Source: Desulfobulbus oligotrophicus (GTDB taxonomy: Bacteria; Desulfobacterota; Desulfobulbia; Desulfobulbales; Desulfobulbaceae). From it: 64,000 bases of DNA. Below, in pieces: positions 28,263-42,494 of the stretch (positions are counted from its first letter, which is position 1; every line of letters begins with the position of its first letter). The notes under the pieces were generated by a model. That model saw only the letters and a list, made by a program, of their open reading frames with translations, was not told the origin of the DNA and ran no database searches. Position numbers and translations under genes: made by a program. Location: the NCBI RefSeq assembly GCF_016446285.1, contig NZ_CP054140.1, positions 2,709,501 through 2,773,500 on the forward strand, given 5' to 3'.

Positions 28263-29114
28263 TCAAGCCGTCACTACCAAAACAGAGCACCGGGACCGGC
28301 CGATGATATTATCAGCAATGTGCCCTTTAAACACCTTGGGCATGCCGCCTTTACTCCGGTTACCGATCAGAATCATATCAACGTCGCGGGTATCGGCTGT
28401 TTTCAGGATCTGTTCCACCGGGTCACCAACTTCGAGAAGAAATTCGCAGGGGACCGGTGGCGCCGCCTGCTCTGTCAACAGAGAAACTTCCTCAAGCAGC
28501 GCTCGGGCACTCTCGCCCTCTTCCTCTGAAGGTGCCACTGCCAGCATAATAATCTGCTGCAAGGTGGTACAGGTGTGCCCCAGGCTGATCGCCTCCTCTA
28601 TCGCCCTTCGGCTGTTGGCCGAATTGTTGATCCCCACCAGGATCCGGTTGCCGCTTATTATAAAATCCTTGGGCGCGACCAGTACCCGGGGAAACCCCTG
28701 TTCCATCACCTTGGCCGTCATCTTCCCGACAAGCAATGACAGCCGGCCGGCCTTGCCATGCCTGCCGATGAGAATAACATCGGCTCCACGCAACCTTGCC
28801 TGTTCAACAATGGTTTTCTCCGGACTGCTGGATCCAACCACCACAACTTCGAGGGTGACGCCGATATCTCTGGCCATGGCCCGGATATAATCAAAATGCG
28901 GTGTGAGTTTTTCGCGACCTTTCCGCACTTCAAAGTTAGCAGCTGTGATCGATTCAACCTGGGTATGAACGACATGAAGAACAATCACTGTCGCCTGACA
29001 GGCCTGACCAAAAAACATAGCCTCTTGGATGGCTCCATCACTGAACGGGGAACCATCGGTGGCGAGCAGCAGGGTTTTAGCCTCGCCAAGTAAACTGGTG
29101 GAGAAACGATCCAT
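28263..29114 (-). CDS. Tandem universal stress protein (two UspA domains)
   Basis: A soluble protein of 283 residues made of two UspA domains. Domain 1 (about 12-150) starts TLLLATDGSPFSDGAIQEA and ends with the nucleotide-binding-type signature LIGRHGKAGRLSLLVGKMTAKVM. Domain 2 (about 158-283) starts RILVGINNSANSRRAIEEA and ends MILIGNRSKGGMPKVFKGHIADNII. Both G-x2-G-x9-G(S/T)-like motifs suggest ATP binding. It is the first gene of a probable two-gene unit with the SulP transporter, so it may modulate or accompany anion uptake under stress. A 17-bp palindrome lies about 130 bp upstream. Confidence 0.9.
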   Translation of the reverse strand: MDRFSTSLLGEAKTLLLATDGSPFSDGAIQEAMFFGQACQATVIVLHVVHTQVESITAANFEVRKGREKLTPHFDYIRAMARDIGVTLEVVVVGSSSPEKTIVEQARLRGADVILIGRHGKAGRLSLLVGKMTAKVMEQGFPRVLVAPKDFIISGNRILVGINNSANSRRAIEEAISLGHTCTTLQQIIMLAVAPSEEEGESARALLEEVSLLTEQAAPPVPCEFLLEVGDPVEQILKTADTRDVDMILIGNRSKGGMPKVFKGHIADNIIGRSRCSVLVVTA

Positions 29115-30058: not shown

Positions 30059-30250
30059 TCACTGTATTTTCGCAGCCAGGACAGATGGTACCGCGTCAGG
30101 ATCATCAAAGGATTCGCCAACAGCCTTGCCGGCTCCATCCATACACTGATAGGGAGGGATGACTCTGTGAACCTCTTCTGTTCCAGACAACAGCGAAGTA
30201 CCGATGACCAGAGTCTCCCATTCAAAGACAGCGCTTTCCGTCACCGTCAA
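30059..30250 (-). CDS. Possible 63-residue ORF coupled to leuA
   Basis: A frame of 63 codons starts at a TTG that overlaps the leuA stop by four bases (TTGA, 30247-30250); a GTG three codons in is an alternative start. The protein begins TVTESAVFEWETLVIGTSLL and ends DAVPSVLAAKIQ. It is acidic and mixed in composition, codon use looks similar to its neighbours, and there is no recognised domain. The overlap suggests translational coupling to leuA, but without homologues I cannot exclude chance. Confidence 0.35.
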   Translation of the reverse strand: MTVTESAVFEWETLVIGTSLLSGTEEVHRVIPPYQCMDGAGKAVGESFDDPDAVPSVLAAKIQ

Positions 30251-31944
30251 TGCTGTCCCTTTGCTTTTGCCGCTGAACGGTTCAAGGCACTGAGCAGAGA
30301 TTTAATGGAGGCAACGATAATATCCGTATCCACACCCGCACCCCACCAGCCTTCATTATCCTGGTCGAGAATTTCAATATAACTCACAGCCTTGGCAGAA
30401 CTTCCCCGGGTAAGGGCATGTTCATGGTACGAGTGGAGCACAAAACGCAAACCAAGCCCATCGCGCAAGGCGGTGCAAAAGGCATCCAAAGGACCATTGC
30501 CACTGGCCCGGATGCTCTGTTCCCCTCCTTTGGTCACCACCACGGCCTCAATTTCGGCTATGGACTGTTCCTCATCACGATCAAAATGACGTTTTATCAC
30601 GTTAAAGGATTTCAGGGCATACCCGTTAACGTTGAACAGGTACTCCTTTTCAAAGGTCTGGAAGATCATCTCCGGTGACAGCTCATCACTGCAGGCATCG
30701 GACACCTCCTGTATCACCCTGCCAAAGCCCGGCCGCATGTCATTGGGTAACTTAAACCCGAACTCATGCTCCATAATGTAGGCTATCCCGCCCTTACCGG
30801 ACTGACTGTTGATCCGGATGATTGACTCGTAGGTCCGGCCGACATCCTGTGGATCGATCGGCAGATAGGGCACTTCCCAAAGCCCGCTTTGCGTCAGTTC
30901 CAAAGCGGTCATCCCCTTGTTGATCGCATCCTGATGCGACCCGGAAAAAGCAGTATAGACCAACTCCCCGGCATACGGATGGCGGGGATGAACCTTCATT
31001 TTAGTACACCGTTCATAGACATTGATCACCTTGTTAATCCGGGAAAAATCCAGTTCCGGATCAACACCCTGGCTGAACATGTTGAGGGCCAGTGTAACAA
31101 TATCGACATTACCGGTCCGCTCACCGTTACCAAACAGGGTCCCCTCAACCCGATCAGCACCGGCCATCAGCGCCAGTTCAGTGGCAGCCACAGCCTCGCC
31201 CCGATCATTATGGGCATGCACACTGATCAGGACGCAGTCACGATTTTTCACGTGCCGACAAAACCATTCAATCTGATCTGCATAGATATTCGGAGTTGAC
31301 ATCTCAACCGTGGCCGGCAGATTGATTATCATCGGTTTTTCAGGAGACGGTTCCCAGACGTCCATGACAGCCTCACAGATCTCCAGGGAAAAATCCAACT
31401 CCGTGCCGGTAAAACTCTCAGGTGAATACTCGTAACGGATGATGGTCTCTGCTCGTTCTGCCTGTTCCCGAATGAGCTTTGCTCCGGTGACTCCAAGTTC
31501 TATGATCTCCTTCTTATCTTTTTTAAACACCACATCCCGTTGCAGGATTGATGTGGAATTGTACAGATGCATGATAGCTTCACGAGCTCCCTGGATCGAA
31601 GCGAACGATCTCTTGATCAGATGTTCACGGGCCTGGGTCAACACCTGCGGGACAACCCCTGTCGGAATATGGTTGCCTTCGATTAACAAACGGAGGAAAT
31701 CGTATTCAATCTGTGAGGCAGAGGGAAAACCGACCTCGATCTCTTTGAAGCCGATCTGTACAAGTAACTGAAACATCTCCAGTTTCTCCTCTACATTCAT
31801 CGGCTGAATGAGTGCCTGGTTCCCATCACGCAAATCCACACTGCACCAGATCGGGGCACGTGTGATCATCTGATCGGGCCATCTGCGGTCCTGCAATGGT
31901 ACCTGTGGGTACGGTCGATACTTACGCAATTTTTCCTGATTCAT
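30247..31944 (-). CDS. leuA: 2-isopropylmalate synthase, first enzyme of leucine synthesis
   Basis: A 565-residue enzyme that condenses acetyl-CoA with 2-oxoisovalerate. It belongs to the longer LeuA type (yeast and mycobacterial form): PLQDRRWPDQMITRAPIWCSVDLRDGNQAL contains the catalytic Arg and metal-binding Asp, and VHAHNDRGEAVAA and LFGNGERTGNVDIV complete the HMGL-like barrel. The C-terminal part (about 430-560) is the LeuA dimer/allosteric domain that binds leucine. GGAGG lies six bases before the ATG. The gene is preceded by a complete transcription attenuator with a leucine-rich leader peptide. No other leu or ilv genes are adjacent. Confidence 0.96.
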   Translation of the reverse strand: MNQEKLRKYRPYPQVPLQDRRWPDQMITRAPIWCSVDLRDGNQALIQPMNVEEKLEMFQLLVQIGFKEIEVGFPSASQIEYDFLRLLIEGNHIPTGVVPQVLTQAREHLIKRSFASIQGAREAIMHLYNSTSILQRDVVFKKDKKEIIELGVTGAKLIREQAERAETIIRYEYSPESFTGTELDFSLEICEAVMDVWEPSPEKPMIINLPATVEMSTPNIYADQIEWFCRHVKNRDCVLISVHAHNDRGEAVAATELALMAGADRVEGTLFGNGERTGNVDIVTLALNMFSQGVDPELDFSRINKVINVYERCTKMKVHPRHPYAGELVYTAFSGSHQDAINKGMTALELTQSGLWEVPYLPIDPQDVGRTYESIIRINSQSGKGGIAYIMEHEFGFKLPNDMRPGFGRVIQEVSDACSDELSPEMIFQTFEKEYLFNVNGYALKSFNVIKRHFDRDEEQSIAEIEAVVVTKGGEQSIRASGNGPLDAFCTALRDGLGLRFVLHSYHEHALTRGSSAKAVSYIEILDQDNEGWWGAGVDTDIIVASIKSLLSALNRSAAKAKGQH

Positions 31945-31965: not shown

Positions 31966-31999
31966 AAAAAAAAAAGCCACGGTTCGAAAACCGTGGCTT
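31966..31999 (-). terminator. Attenuator terminator in the leuA leader
   Basis: On the minus strand AAGCCACGGTT (31989-31999) pairs perfectly with AACCGTGGCTT (31974-31984) around a four-base loop, an 11-bp stem, and a run of ten T residues follows (31966-31975, partly shared with the stem). It lies 22 bp before the leuA ATG, that is, within the leader, which is expected for an attenuator. Confidence 0.93.
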
Positions 32000-32081
32000 A
32001 TAAGGGGCGAATGTCGTGAGCTTGTCAGAACACACCTTTCTCCTCTGCCACGGTTGATCCGTGTAGTCGGCTAAGAAGAAG
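31974..32081 (-). promoter_or_regulatory. leuA transcription attenuator (alternative hairpins 1:2, 2:3, 3:4)
   Basis: Four complementary segments are visible on the minus strand. Segment 1 is CACGG (32059-32063), segment 2 AACCGTGGC (32047-32055), segment 3 GCCACGGTT (31989-31997) and segment 4 AACCGTGGC (31976-31984). Segments 1 and 2 form a pause hairpin, 2 and 3 a nine-bp antiterminator, and 3 and 4 the terminator. Three consecutive Leu codons of the leader peptide (32073-32081) lie just before segment 1. A ribosome stalled there for lack of charged tRNA-Leu would mask segment 1 and favour the antiterminator. This is the classical design of amino-acid operon attenuators. Confidence 0.88.
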
Positions 32082-32114
32082 ATGTGCTAGTGTACAAGTC
32101 ATAATTCGTTGCAT
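32025..32114 (-). CDS. leuL: Leucine leader peptide (29 residues)
   Basis: A 29-codon frame, MQRIMTCTLA then HLLLSRLHGS, ending KGVF with a TGA stop at 32025-32027. It contains five leucines in a nine-codon span: CTA, then CTT CTT CTT, then CTA. The second half encodes antiterminator segment 2. The predicted transcript starts only about ten bases upstream and there is no Shine-Dalgarno sequence, so translation may be nearly leaderless; the internal Met5 is an alternative start. It acts as a sensor for charged tRNA-Leu, not as a protein with its own function. Confidence 0.85.
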   Translation of the reverse strand: MQRIMTCTLAHLLLSRLHGSTVAEEKGVF

Positions 32115-32129
32115 GATTAATTTGCTCAC

Positions 32130-32159
32130 ATACTAAGAGTCTCCTGCTCTGTTTGTCAA
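32130..32159 (-). promoter_or_regulatory. Sigma-70-type promoter of leuL-leuA
   Basis: On the minus strand a perfect TTGACA (32154-32159) and TAGTAT (32130-32135) are 18 bases apart. The -35 box begins 35 bp after the fbp stop codon, so leuA has its own transcript. The predicted start near 32123 is just before the leader peptide ATG. Confidence 0.7.
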
Positions 32160-32193: not shown

Positions 32194-33210
32194 TTACATT
32201 TCACCACGTAAAAATTTTTCAGCAAGATCAACATCCCGCCTGGAGCCAATGATCAGCGGCACTCGCTGATGGAGGTTTTTCGGCTCAATGTCCAGAATAC
32301 GACGGCCATCATCGGTAATAGCACGCCCTCCCGCCTGTTCGACAATCAGGGCCAAAGGCGCTGCTTCATAGAGAAGCCGCAACTTGCCTTCGGATTTTTC
32401 TCCGCTCTTCTTGTCGCGGGTATAAAGGAAGATGCCGCCCTTAATCAGGTTCCGATGAAAATCAGCCACCAGTGACCCGATATAGCGCAAGCTGTACGGT
32501 CCATTGCCACCATCGGCTCTTTTTAAGTAATTGATGAAGTTCCGGGTGCTATCAAACCAATGGTCGGCATAGGCCTCATTCACGCTGTAATAAAGCGATG
32601 TTTCCGGGATTTTGATATCAGGATGACTGAGGAAGAATTCGCCGACACTTGGATCAAGAGTAAACCCATGCACCCCGGAACCGGTGGTGTACACCATGAC
32701 TGTTGACGAGCCGTAAATAATGTATCCGGCGGCAACCTGTTGAGTGCCCTTTTGAAGCAGATCTTGAGCGTTGCCCTGGCCGGAAGGGCTGATGCGCCGA
32801 TGAATGGAAAAAATAGTGCCGATGCTCACATTGACGTCGATATTGGTCGATCCGTCAAGAGGGTCAAAGGCAATGGTATAGTTCCCCTCGTAACCGTCAA
32901 GCACAGGAATAATATCGTCCTCTTCCTCTGAGGCCATGACACAGACATGGCCGCACTGCTCCATGCGCCGCTTGATGGTCTGGTTGGCAAAGACATCGAG
33001 TTTTTGTACGTTCTCACCCTGAATATTGGTCCGCCCGGACTGCCCGAGGATATCGGCCAGGCCGGCCATGTTCACCTCGGCACTGATTATCTTACCGGCC
33101 ACAACCAGATCATTCAGCAGACTGGTCAACTCACCGGTGGCCTCCGGATGCAGGCGCTGATCGTCCATAATCTGGCGACTGACGGTGATTCCTTTTCTCT
33201 TGACGAGCAT
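32194..33210 (-). CDS. fbp: Fructose-1,6-bisphosphatase class I
   Basis: Gluconeogenic enzyme of 338 residues that converts fructose 1,6-bisphosphate to fructose 6-phosphate. The metal-binding core is ASEEEDDIIP together with AFDPLDGSTNIDVNVSIGTIFSI (about 108-130). The substrate-site segment GGIFLYTRDKKSGEKSEGKLRLLYEAAPLALIVEQAGG is also conserved, and the family ending with SRRDVDLAEKFL is present. Its class I membership is clear. It follows pepA by about 50 bp on the same strand, and the leuA promoter starts directly after it. Confidence 0.96.
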   Translation of the reverse strand: MLVKRKGITVSRQIMDDQRLHPEATGELTSLLNDLVVAGKIISAEVNMAGLADILGQSGRTNIQGENVQKLDVFANQTIKRRMEQCGHVCVMASEEEDDIIPVLDGYEGNYTIAFDPLDGSTNIDVNVSIGTIFSIHRRISPSGQGNAQDLLQKGTQQVAAGYIIYGSSTVMVYTTGSGVHGFTLDPSVGEFFLSHPDIKIPETSLYYSVNEAYADHWFDSTRNFINYLKRADGGNGPYSLRYIGSLVADFHRNLIKGGIFLYTRDKKSGEKSEGKLRLLYEAAPLALIVEQAGGRAITDDGRRILDIEPKNLHQRVPLIIGSRRDVDLAEKFLRGEM

Positions 33211-39640: not shown

Positions 39641-41132
39641 GTCGGCCATGAAAAACTCTCAACGAGTTGGAATATATGGATAAAAATTGAAAAATATAGC
39701 ACTGTAAATTGCAGGATATTGCACTTTTCCCCTTCAATTTCTGGTGATTTTCGATGCAGCCGAAGAAGCAGATTTCCAGCCCCCAGTTGGACATGTTCCG
39801 TAACCGTCGGGAGAGTATTCTCAACCATCGTCATGAGTTGTACCAGCTAAGCAGACTGATTGACTGGGGAGTGTTTGAAAGCGAGTTTGGCAAGCTGTAC
39901 TCTGAGGAAGGCCGGCCGGGGCTCCCGATTCGTTTGCTCGTAGGCCTGACCTACCTGAGTCATGCGTTCAACACGTCGGACGAAGAGACAGTACGGCGGT
40001 GGGTGGAGAACCCGTACCATCAATATTTCTGCGGGGAAGAGTACTTTTGTCATGCGTTACCGATCGATCCGTCTTCGTTGAGTCGCTGGCGGAAGAGGAT
40101 AGGTGAGCAGGGATCGGAATTGATCCTGAAGCTGACTGTGCAGGCGGGCTTGGCGAGTGGAGCGGTTGCACCGACGAGTTTGGCGCGGGTCATTGTTGAT
40201 ACGACTGTTCAGGAAAAGGCCATTGCGTTTCCGACCGATTCACGATTGTACAACCGCAGTCGGGAACGACTGATCAAGTTGGCTGCGGTTTGGGGCATTC
40301 GTCTTCGGCAGAGTTACTCCCGTCTTGGACGTCAGGCCTTGTTGAAGGCCGGCCGGTATTTTCACGCCCGCCAAACCCGAAGAGCCCGTCGGGAGGTAAA
40401 ACGGCTGAAGACCTATCTGGGCAGGGTGTATCGGGACATTGTGCGCAAGATCGAAGGGCAGCAGGCGCTTGGCCCTGTTTTTCATCCGGAGCTTATGCTG
40501 GCGGGGCGGTTGTTGACGCAGCAGAAACAGGACAAGAACAAGCTCTACAGCCTGCATGCACCGGAAGTCGAATGCATTGCCAAGGGCAAGGCACACAAGA
40601 AGTACGAGTTCGGGGTCAAGGTGAGCGTGGCCACCGCCAATCGAGACAACTTCGTGGTGGGCATGTTGGCTGAACCTGGCAATCCCTATGATGGCCACAC
40701 CCTGGGCAGGGCCATTGAGCAGGTGCAGCGGATCACGGGTTGTTTGGTTGAGCGCAGCTTTGTTGACCGGGGTTACCGTGGTCACAACCTCAAAGACCCG
40801 CAGGTCTTGATCTCCGGTCGCAGACAGGGGATGACGCCGCAAATGAAAAAAGAACTGAAGAGGCGCAGCGCTGTTGAGCCGGTGATCGGTCACATGAAGA
40901 CGGACGGCAAGCTTGGACGCAATTACCTGCTGGGTACGTTGGGTGACACCATCAATGCCCTGCTTTGCGGCGCAGGGCACAATATCCGCCTGATCCTCAA
41001 GAAGTTGAGGGAAAGGTTGTTTCTTCTTTTTACCGGATTGCTTTTGGCCCTCTGGTGCCGCTTCGATGGGCAAAAAAAGGGTGCCGGAGCGATCGTCCCG
41101 GCAATATGAAAAAAGGCTTTTTCAAGGACGAC
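39641..41132 (+). mobile_element. Complete IS5-family insertion sequence (1492 bp), copy A
   Basis: The element is bounded by imperfect terminal inverted repeats: GTCGGCCATGAAAAA at the left (39641-39655) and GTCGTCCTTGAAAAA read inward from the right end (41118-41132), 13 of 15 positions matching. Identical 6-bp direct repeats TACCTA flank it (39635-39640 and 41133-41138), which looks like the target duplication of a single insertion. It carries one intact transposase gene. It landed between purM and the convergent Rossmann-protein gene without breaking either. Assignment to IS5 is from the transposase; the subgroup is uncertain. Confidence 0.85.
39754..41109 (+). CDS. IS5-family DDE transposase (copy A)
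   Basis: An intact 451-residue transposase. The N-terminal DUF772-type domain reads LPIRLLVGLTYLSHAFNTSDEETVRRWVENPYHQYFCGE. The DDE catalytic core follows: Asp in VIVDTTVQEKAI, Asp in FVDRGYRGHN and Glu in SAVEPVIGHMK. There is an Arg/Lys-rich stretch between residues 195 and 230. The strand is the same as purM. No frameshift is seen, so the element may still be active. Confidence 0.92.
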   Translation: MQPKKQISSPQLDMFRNRRESILNHRHELYQLSRLIDWGVFESEFGKLYSEEGRPGLPIRLLVGLTYLSHAFNTSDEETVRRWVENPYHQYFCGEEYFCHALPIDPSSLSRWRKRIGEQGSELILKLTVQAGLASGAVAPTSLARVIVDTTVQEKAIAFPTDSRLYNRSRERLIKLAAVWGIRLRQSYSRLGRQALLKAGRYFHARQTRRARREVKRLKTYLGRVYRDIVRKIEGQQALGPVFHPELMLAGRLLTQQKQDKNKLYSLHAPEVECIAKGKAHKKYEFGVKVSVATANRDNFVVGMLAEPGNPYDGHTLGRAIEQVQRITGCLVERSFVDRGYRGHNLKDPQVLISGRRQGMTPQMKKELKRRSAVEPVIGHMKTDGKLGRNYLLGTLGDTINALLCGAGHNIRLILKKLRERLFLLFTGLLLALWCRFDGQKKGAGAIVPAI

Positions 41133-42457: not shown

Positions 42458-42494
42458 AAAAAAAAAGCCGCAGTGTCTTCATGACGCTGCGGCT
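42458..42494 (-). terminator. Rho-independent terminator after the first histidine kinase
   Basis: On the minus strand AGCCGCAG (42487-42494) pairs with CTGCGGCT (42466-42473), with a further GTC/GAC pairing inside, and nine T residues follow. It starts 28 bases after the kinase stop codon at 42522. Confidence 0.9.

Follow-up and report, generated by a model that had tools for sequence, protein, structure and literature searches.

A putative leader-peptide attenuator of leucine synthesis upstream of leuA in Desulfobulbus oligotrophicus and its relatives

Introduction

Does the short region between fbp and leuA in Desulfobulbus oligotrophicus regulate leucine biosynthesis by sensing leucine itself? 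The region lies in a 64,000-nt stretch (the window) of a genome that consists of a single 3.10-Mb contig. A first-pass annotation of the DNA had read it as an attenuator, in which a ribosome translating a Leu-rich leader peptide decides whether leuA is transcribed. We examined this reading by comparing leuA upstream regions across related bacteria, scoring base pairing against shuffled controls, and folding the leader with the ribosome placed at successive codons. From these analyses, we consider the region to be a ribosome-mediated transcription attenuator of leuA that senses charged tRNA-Leu, with a probability of about 0.93.

Results

The whole attenuator lies on the minus strand, between two genes on that strand, and comprises the following features in order of transcription.

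32194..33210, minus strand: fbp, the upstream gene, with its 3′ end at 32194
32130..32159, minus strand: sigma-70-like promoter, TTGACA-18-TAGTAT (one found; shuffles average 0.6)
32103..32114, minus strand: possible four-codon N-terminal extension of the leader (start ATG 32114), not generally conserved
32025..32102, minus strand: leader ORF from the conserved start, 25 codons, MTCTLAHLLLSRLHGSTVAEEKGVF (ORF and comparison)
32064..32090, minus strand: control region, with Leu codons CTA, CTT CTT CTT and CTA at positions 5, 8–10 and 13 of 25
32069..32086, minus strand: 5′ arm of hairpin 1:2, including the CTT codons (computed fold)
32047..32055, minus strand: segment 2, AACCGTGGC, inside the codons for TVA (sequence and alignment)
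32031..32049, minus strand: 3′ arm of hairpin 1:2, formed by the end of segment 2 and a purine-rich tract (computed fold)
31989..31997, minus strand: segment 3, GCCACGGTT, the complement of segment 2 (sequence and alignment)
31974..31999, minus strand: terminator hairpin 3:4, 11 bp (terminator search, folding and alignment)
31976..31984, minus strand: segment 4, identical to segment 2 (sequence)
31966..31975, minus strand: run of ten T
30247..31944, minus strand: leuA, 2-isopropylmalate synthase of the PRK03739 / leuA_yeast type (NF002991.1, 851 bits; TIGR00970.1, 757.7 bits)

The elements named in the first-pass annotation were recovered with few corrections. The promoter is present, with its first base at 32159 and its last at 32130, and the stated Leu codons fall within the leader ORF. 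Segments 2 (32055–32047) and 3 (31997–31989) form the nine-bp antiterminator, segments 2 and 4 are identical and both complementary to segment 3, and the 11-bp terminator ends in ten T, two of which belong to its stem. The pause hairpin 1:2 also exists, with the amendment that the CTT codons lie in its 5′ arm, where the computed window fold places the CTTCTTCTT codons. The gap from the T run to the leuA ATG (31944), given earlier as 22 bp, measures 21 nt. Two terminator-like sites occur in the region, counting both strands, against a shuffle mean of 0.2, and none of 200 shuffles folds as stably as the 181-nt leader (z = −4.87).

The downstream gene belongs to the leucine pathway; its matches to NF002991.1 and TIGR00970.1 both exceed the cut-off. 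Among the best 80 of 585 loci, a set that may omit the window's own record, the closest named relatives of this LeuA are Desulfobulbus and Desulfobulbaceae records at no more than 86% identity. As had been proposed, leuA appears to stand alone: leuB is located elsewhere in the genome, and the next long same-strand ORF (28263–29114, universal-stress-protein-like) has its upstream end 1.1 kb away. The intervening gap holds only one mechanical ORF of 130 aa and two weak terminator-like sites, within the range of shuffles (mean 1.3). In the same genome, the 400 bases upstream of the ilvB and leuB matches contain no obvious leader by eye. Elsewhere in the window, a 451-aa ORF (39754–41109) resembles an IS transposase by eye.

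The start of the leader required revision. An ATG equivalent to 32102 is present in genus rows L003–L015 (the aligned slice of L012 begins one base inside it) and gives a leader of 25 codons instead of 29, the length from ATG 32114; an ATG matching the latter is common only to L004, L009 and L013 among the 13 genus rows. From the position of the −10 hexamer, transcription would be expected to start near 32123, leaving a predicted 5′ UTR of about 20 nt ahead of ATG 32102. Given the conserved start and this predicted UTR, the almost leaderless start envisaged earlier is probably wrong. Leaderless translation from ATG 32114 was accordingly rejected in favor of ATG 32102, which in the window has no clear Shine-Dalgarno sequence by eye. 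Among 48 valid rows, the faulty row L035 having been dropped, 35 have an exact TTGACA and a −10-like hexamer 5′ of the leader.

By itself, the leucine run of the window is weak, as 45 of 500 mononucleotide shuffles of the upstream region match it, and the case therefore rests on comparison with relatives. We collected leuA upstream regions from 30 loci found in a search of 55 genomes (the window's own included) and from 80 named loci, the best 80 of 585. Before counting, we removed L001 (same place as L002), L026 (truncated leuA), and L032 and L033, which were taken as duplicates of L004 and L008 because their contigs are equal in length. A segment 4 motif, a T run and a leucine-bearing ORF occur together upstream of leuA in 49 of 51 distinct Desulfobulbales-group loci, by a terminator pattern chosen after the sequences had been inspected. 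In L018, the leader is present (model match, E 2.8e-11) and the terminator contains N. Locus L048 lacks the element: it has no segment 4 motif, is not matched by the model, and carries another kind of terminator-like hairpin together with an ORF rich in Leu and Phe. Loci of the cable bacteria Candidatus Electrothrix and Electronema (L038, L040 and L054) carry the attenuator. Three loci titled Deltaproteobacteria (L066, L082 and L087; 56–58% LeuA identity) have no terminator and were kept outside the Desulfobulbales-group count.

Spacing and codon content are likewise conserved. Measured from the leader stop (its first base) through the last T of the run, the distance is 59–73 nt in the 49 loci. 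The interval from the T run to leuA is 115–214 nt in L012, L014, L022 and L065 and 19–91 nt in other loci, with 21 nt in the window. Across 48 leaders, whose reading frames in relatives were selected by Leu content, the 11-codon control region holds four to nine Leu codons (median 6; five in the window), and in 47 of the 48, the window row included, no more than 5% of 60 region shuffles match the leucine run. The leader of L028 has just three Leu in eight codons. CTA accounts for 69 of 293 control-region Leu codons (23.5%) versus 40 of 2279 (1.8%) in the same 48 leuA genes, a difference whose significance a chi-square overstates, as leaders of one lineage are not independent. In the long ORFs of the window, CTA makes up 23 of 1863 Leu codons.

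Base pairing was scored in an alignment of 48 rows (A1), from which truncated L035 was left out, as it was from the ribosome profiles below. Pairing between segments 3 and 4 is found in 97.9% of cells versus 27–47% with slid partners; 18 cells and four pairs are changed on both sides, and none of 500 shuffles scores as high on both-sided cells, cells paired or covariation. The aligned sequences thus give clear covariation for 3:4. The 2:3 pairing holds in 95.1% of 430 cells versus 24–47% with slid partners, and four of its pairs have changes on both sides. Covariation for 2:3 is moderate: the five measures are attained by 22, 10, 5, 120 and 12 of 500 shuffles, and its seven both-sided cells are matched by slid partners (up to 12) because segment 3 varies little. 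In the aligned register, segment 2 pairs at six of nine positions in L053 and at seven of nine in L017, L020, L044 and L046. With segment 3 shared by antiterminator and terminator, the two pairings are mutually exclusive. The Leu codons and stem pairings, which the first-pass annotation had proposed to look for in aligned relatives, are therefore conserved.

Hairpin 1:2 has an inner and an outer part. Segment 2 often varies between C and T in the third position of its Thr codon, a change accompanied by G or A in the inner hairpin's 5′ arm (A-U in 22 of the 48 rows, G-C in 11, G-U in two and unpaired in 13). At the base of the inner hairpin, U-A replaces C-G in L008 and L010. The percentage paired in the inner hairpin is reached by none of 500 shuffles; for 1:2, shuffles do as well as the alignment on two of the five measures (310 and 484 of 500), and 17 cells are changed on both sides versus up to 13 with slid partners. 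In the outer part, the window pairs its pyrimidine-rich Leu codons with the purine-rich tract 3′ of segment 2, as many relatives also do when judged by eye. Since the third base of the Thr codon covaries with the inner arm, the TVA peptide motif seems to be mainly a side effect of RNA pairing.

We then considered how the position of a ribosome would alter these pairings, assuming that its footprint reaches 12 nt beyond the first base of the A site. Capture of segment 3, that is, its pairing with upstream leader sequence, was computed for 48 leaders on transcripts cut at segment 3. Mean capture is 0.61–0.68 when codons −26 to −23 occupy the A site and 0.69–0.74 for −22 to −14; it then falls to 0.65 at −13, 0.47 at −12 and 0.24 at −11, reaching 0 when the ribosome is at the stop. 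Leu codons cluster at −22 to −13, just ahead of this drop, making up 90% of codons at −16, 83% at −13 and no more than 6% from −11 to −3. On the cut transcripts (n = 48), a ribosome stalled at the control codons frees 2:3, and one at the stop does not. For the window, the models give a capture of 0.79 when the ribosome occupies the CTT codons, 0.19 when none is present and 0 when it has reached the stop. In terms of minimum energy, the free RNA folds as 2:3 when the ribosome sits on the first CTT, and as 3:4 when the ribosome is absent or at the stop.

Full-length folding conveys less. The ensemble for the window shows the mean pair probability of the terminator decreasing from 0.95 to 0.60–0.65 with the ribosome on codons 6–10, while in most relatives equilibrium folding favors the terminator at nearly every ribosome position. 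Such folding is of little use for the relatives, which is why transcripts cut at segment 3 were used, and it implies that the switch would have to be kinetic; we read it as kinetic, as in other attenuators. Of the two alternative forms that the first-pass annotation suggested folding, the models bear out a shift of segment 3 pairing with ribosome position, and full-length equilibrium reflects that shift weakly. Without a ribosome, capture on cut transcripts is 0.50 or lower in just 12 of 48 leaders, so that termination without translation is not clearly predicted by the models beyond the window.

A covariance model built from the leaders was searched against the genome, the loci and the phylum. 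The genome has one strong copy, at leuA (2.9e-26), and its next match (window 42458–42494, E 0.001) involves only the terminator part of the model; this minus-strand site is another terminator-like hairpin, with a GCCGCAG stem and a T run. Matches at E ≤ 1e-4 occur in 36 of 395 phylum genomes. Ten matches reach E ≤ 5.2e-10, seven in the family of the window and three in one other family of the order, which includes two genomes with LeuA 66–67% identical to that of the window. For 19 other same-order genomes outside the window's family, the best LeuA matches are only 26–30% identical. Outside the phylum, two loci have a model match before leuA: L058 of Nitrospirae (E 3.2e-11 in the set of loci, 6.2e-10 in its genome), whose leader has only three Leu, and L060 of Spirochaetaceae (E 8.1e-6 and 1.7e-4, respectively). 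By eye, a similar element is seen in L056 (E 0.0045, for the terminator part alone) and L100 (E 2.9); neither match is significant, and their genomes contain no match at E ≤ 0.01.

Weak matches elsewhere in the phylum resemble other amino-acid attenuators. With gene names assigned by eye, L135 has an Ile/Leu/Val-rich leader before an ilvD-like ORF, and Phe/Tyr-rich leaders precede DAHP-synthase-like ORFs in L136 and L143 and aldolase-like ORFs in L137 and L145. A similar scaffold in Nitrospirota (L068:1329–1496; GCCGTGGCTGAAGGGGG, with an GGCCGCGG terminator; E 3.4e-7) has a Leu-poor leader and precedes a methyltransferase-like ORF rather than leuA directly.

At the gathering score, no Rfam family matches the leader, and the sole such match in the window is a tRNA. 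The 13 Rfam matches up to E = 10 around the leader include neither a T-box nor the leu leader family (Leu_leader, RF00512). As a candidate for a known family, the best match, an sRNA at E 0.021, was rejected; it falls below the gathering score and lies on the terminator and slightly before it. The literature searched contains no description of a Desulfobulbales leuA attenuator, and the available parts of PMC2965389 and PMC4833913 make no mention of one, though the attenuator surveys of 2004 and 2010 may hold an earlier prediction.

Discussion

The computed parts, their conservation and covariation, the codon bias and the predicted switch agree with the proposal that leuA is attenuated by charged tRNA-Leu: relatives retain both the Leu codons and the pairings, and the partner predicted for segment 3 depends on where the ribosome is. 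We infer from them that the leader is transcribed and translated, that the two processes are coupled, and that the outcome responds to leucine. Following closely after RNA polymerase, a ribosome would begin to translate the leader. Under a shortage of charged tRNA-Leu, it would stall in the Leu codons and cover the 5′ arm of 1:2, letting segment 2 pair with segment 3 as the latter exits the polymerase; no terminator would form, and leuA would be transcribed. With leucine plentiful, the ribosome would reach the stop, and segment 2 would be covered or held by 1:2. Segment 3 would then pair with segment 4, and transcription would end at the T run.

Other explanations account for less of the data. 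The hairpin might be the terminator of fbp, which ends at 32194 on the same strand, or a plain terminator, with a leucine run that arose by chance, as the shuffles that equal the window's run would allow. We regard this as very improbable, as a promoter-like site separates fbp from the hairpin, the 49 loci conserve the leader along with the terminator, the runs of nearly all leaders surpass their shuffles, and segment 2, within the ORF, remains complementary to segment 3. A leucine-sensing RNA that works independently of translation (T-box or riboswitch) is suggested by the same leuA type having a T-box in 9 of 9 Firmicutes loci tested, these having been picked from 20 for a terminator already seen there. 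The Rfam results above and the nature of the conserved features, which are codons in a reading frame, make such an RNA hardly credible here.

The end of the leader could complicate attenuation by charged tRNA-Leu. In the window (32025–32045) and in relatives, the leader ends with a Shine-Dalgarno-like purine tract, an NTG and the stop. If this tract and the NTG loaded ribosomes that mask segment 2, the attenuator would receive a second, leucine-independent input. In 40 of 49 leaders, one of the two sense codons closest to the stop is an NTG, and the 17 next-to-last Leu codons are all TTG or TTA, never CTN. Yet the tract also pairs with the Leu codons, and the NTG often sits in a small hairpin around the stop codon (by eye). 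These pairings could explain the position of the NTG and the TTG/TTA usage, which leaves ribosome loading distinctly unlikely. The hairpin around the stop is found in many leaders (mean z −0.89 across 48 against mononucleotide shuffles, −0.9 in the window), and pairing may explain both it and the NTG. A broader version, in which the leader end sets basal read-through into leuA regardless of leucine, either as a start-stop site or through a stop-codon hairpin that times ribosome or polymerase, is also unlikely, if somewhat less so.

Attenuation by charged tRNA-Leu is here an ordinary mechanism in a lineage-specific form, with strong matches in the family of the window and one other family of its order. 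Its presence here would bring leucine attenuation to an anaerobic group, cable bacteria among them, and would mean that one gene, leuA, is served by a T-box in Firmicutes and by a leader peptide in the Desulfobulbales group. The set of leaders is big enough for proposing an RNA family, and the design is compact, with the sensing codons doubling as a structural arm.

Like the leu attenuators of enterobacteria, the Desulfobulbus element combines a Leu-codon leader peptide, mutually exclusive antiterminator and terminator, and leuA directly downstream. It differs in having no Rfam match and in a leuA that adjoins no other leu genes, whereas the enterobacterial order is leuABCD. The leader stop lies downstream of segment 2, whereas the textbook layout places it before that segment, and the control codons are within the 5′ arm of 1:2. 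The Firmicutes leuA T-box (RF00230) likewise precedes the same leuA type and has a terminator, but it reads tRNA directly, without the leader peptide found here. Enrichment of the rare CTA codon is shared with the Salmonella typhimurium leu attenuator, where, according to the available part of the report, CUA codons provide control and their replacement by CUG lowered sensitivity (PMC1183508). The actinobacterial LEU element, as described in the accessible portion of PMC1262725, also concerns leuA and a leader peptide whose Leu run pairs with a Shine-Dalgarno-like sequence. Its partner is the Shine-Dalgarno sequence of leuA, with a pseudoknot proposed (PMC1262725, same portion), whereas in the computed window fold the Leu run finds its partner within the leader ORF, with an intrinsic terminator downstream.
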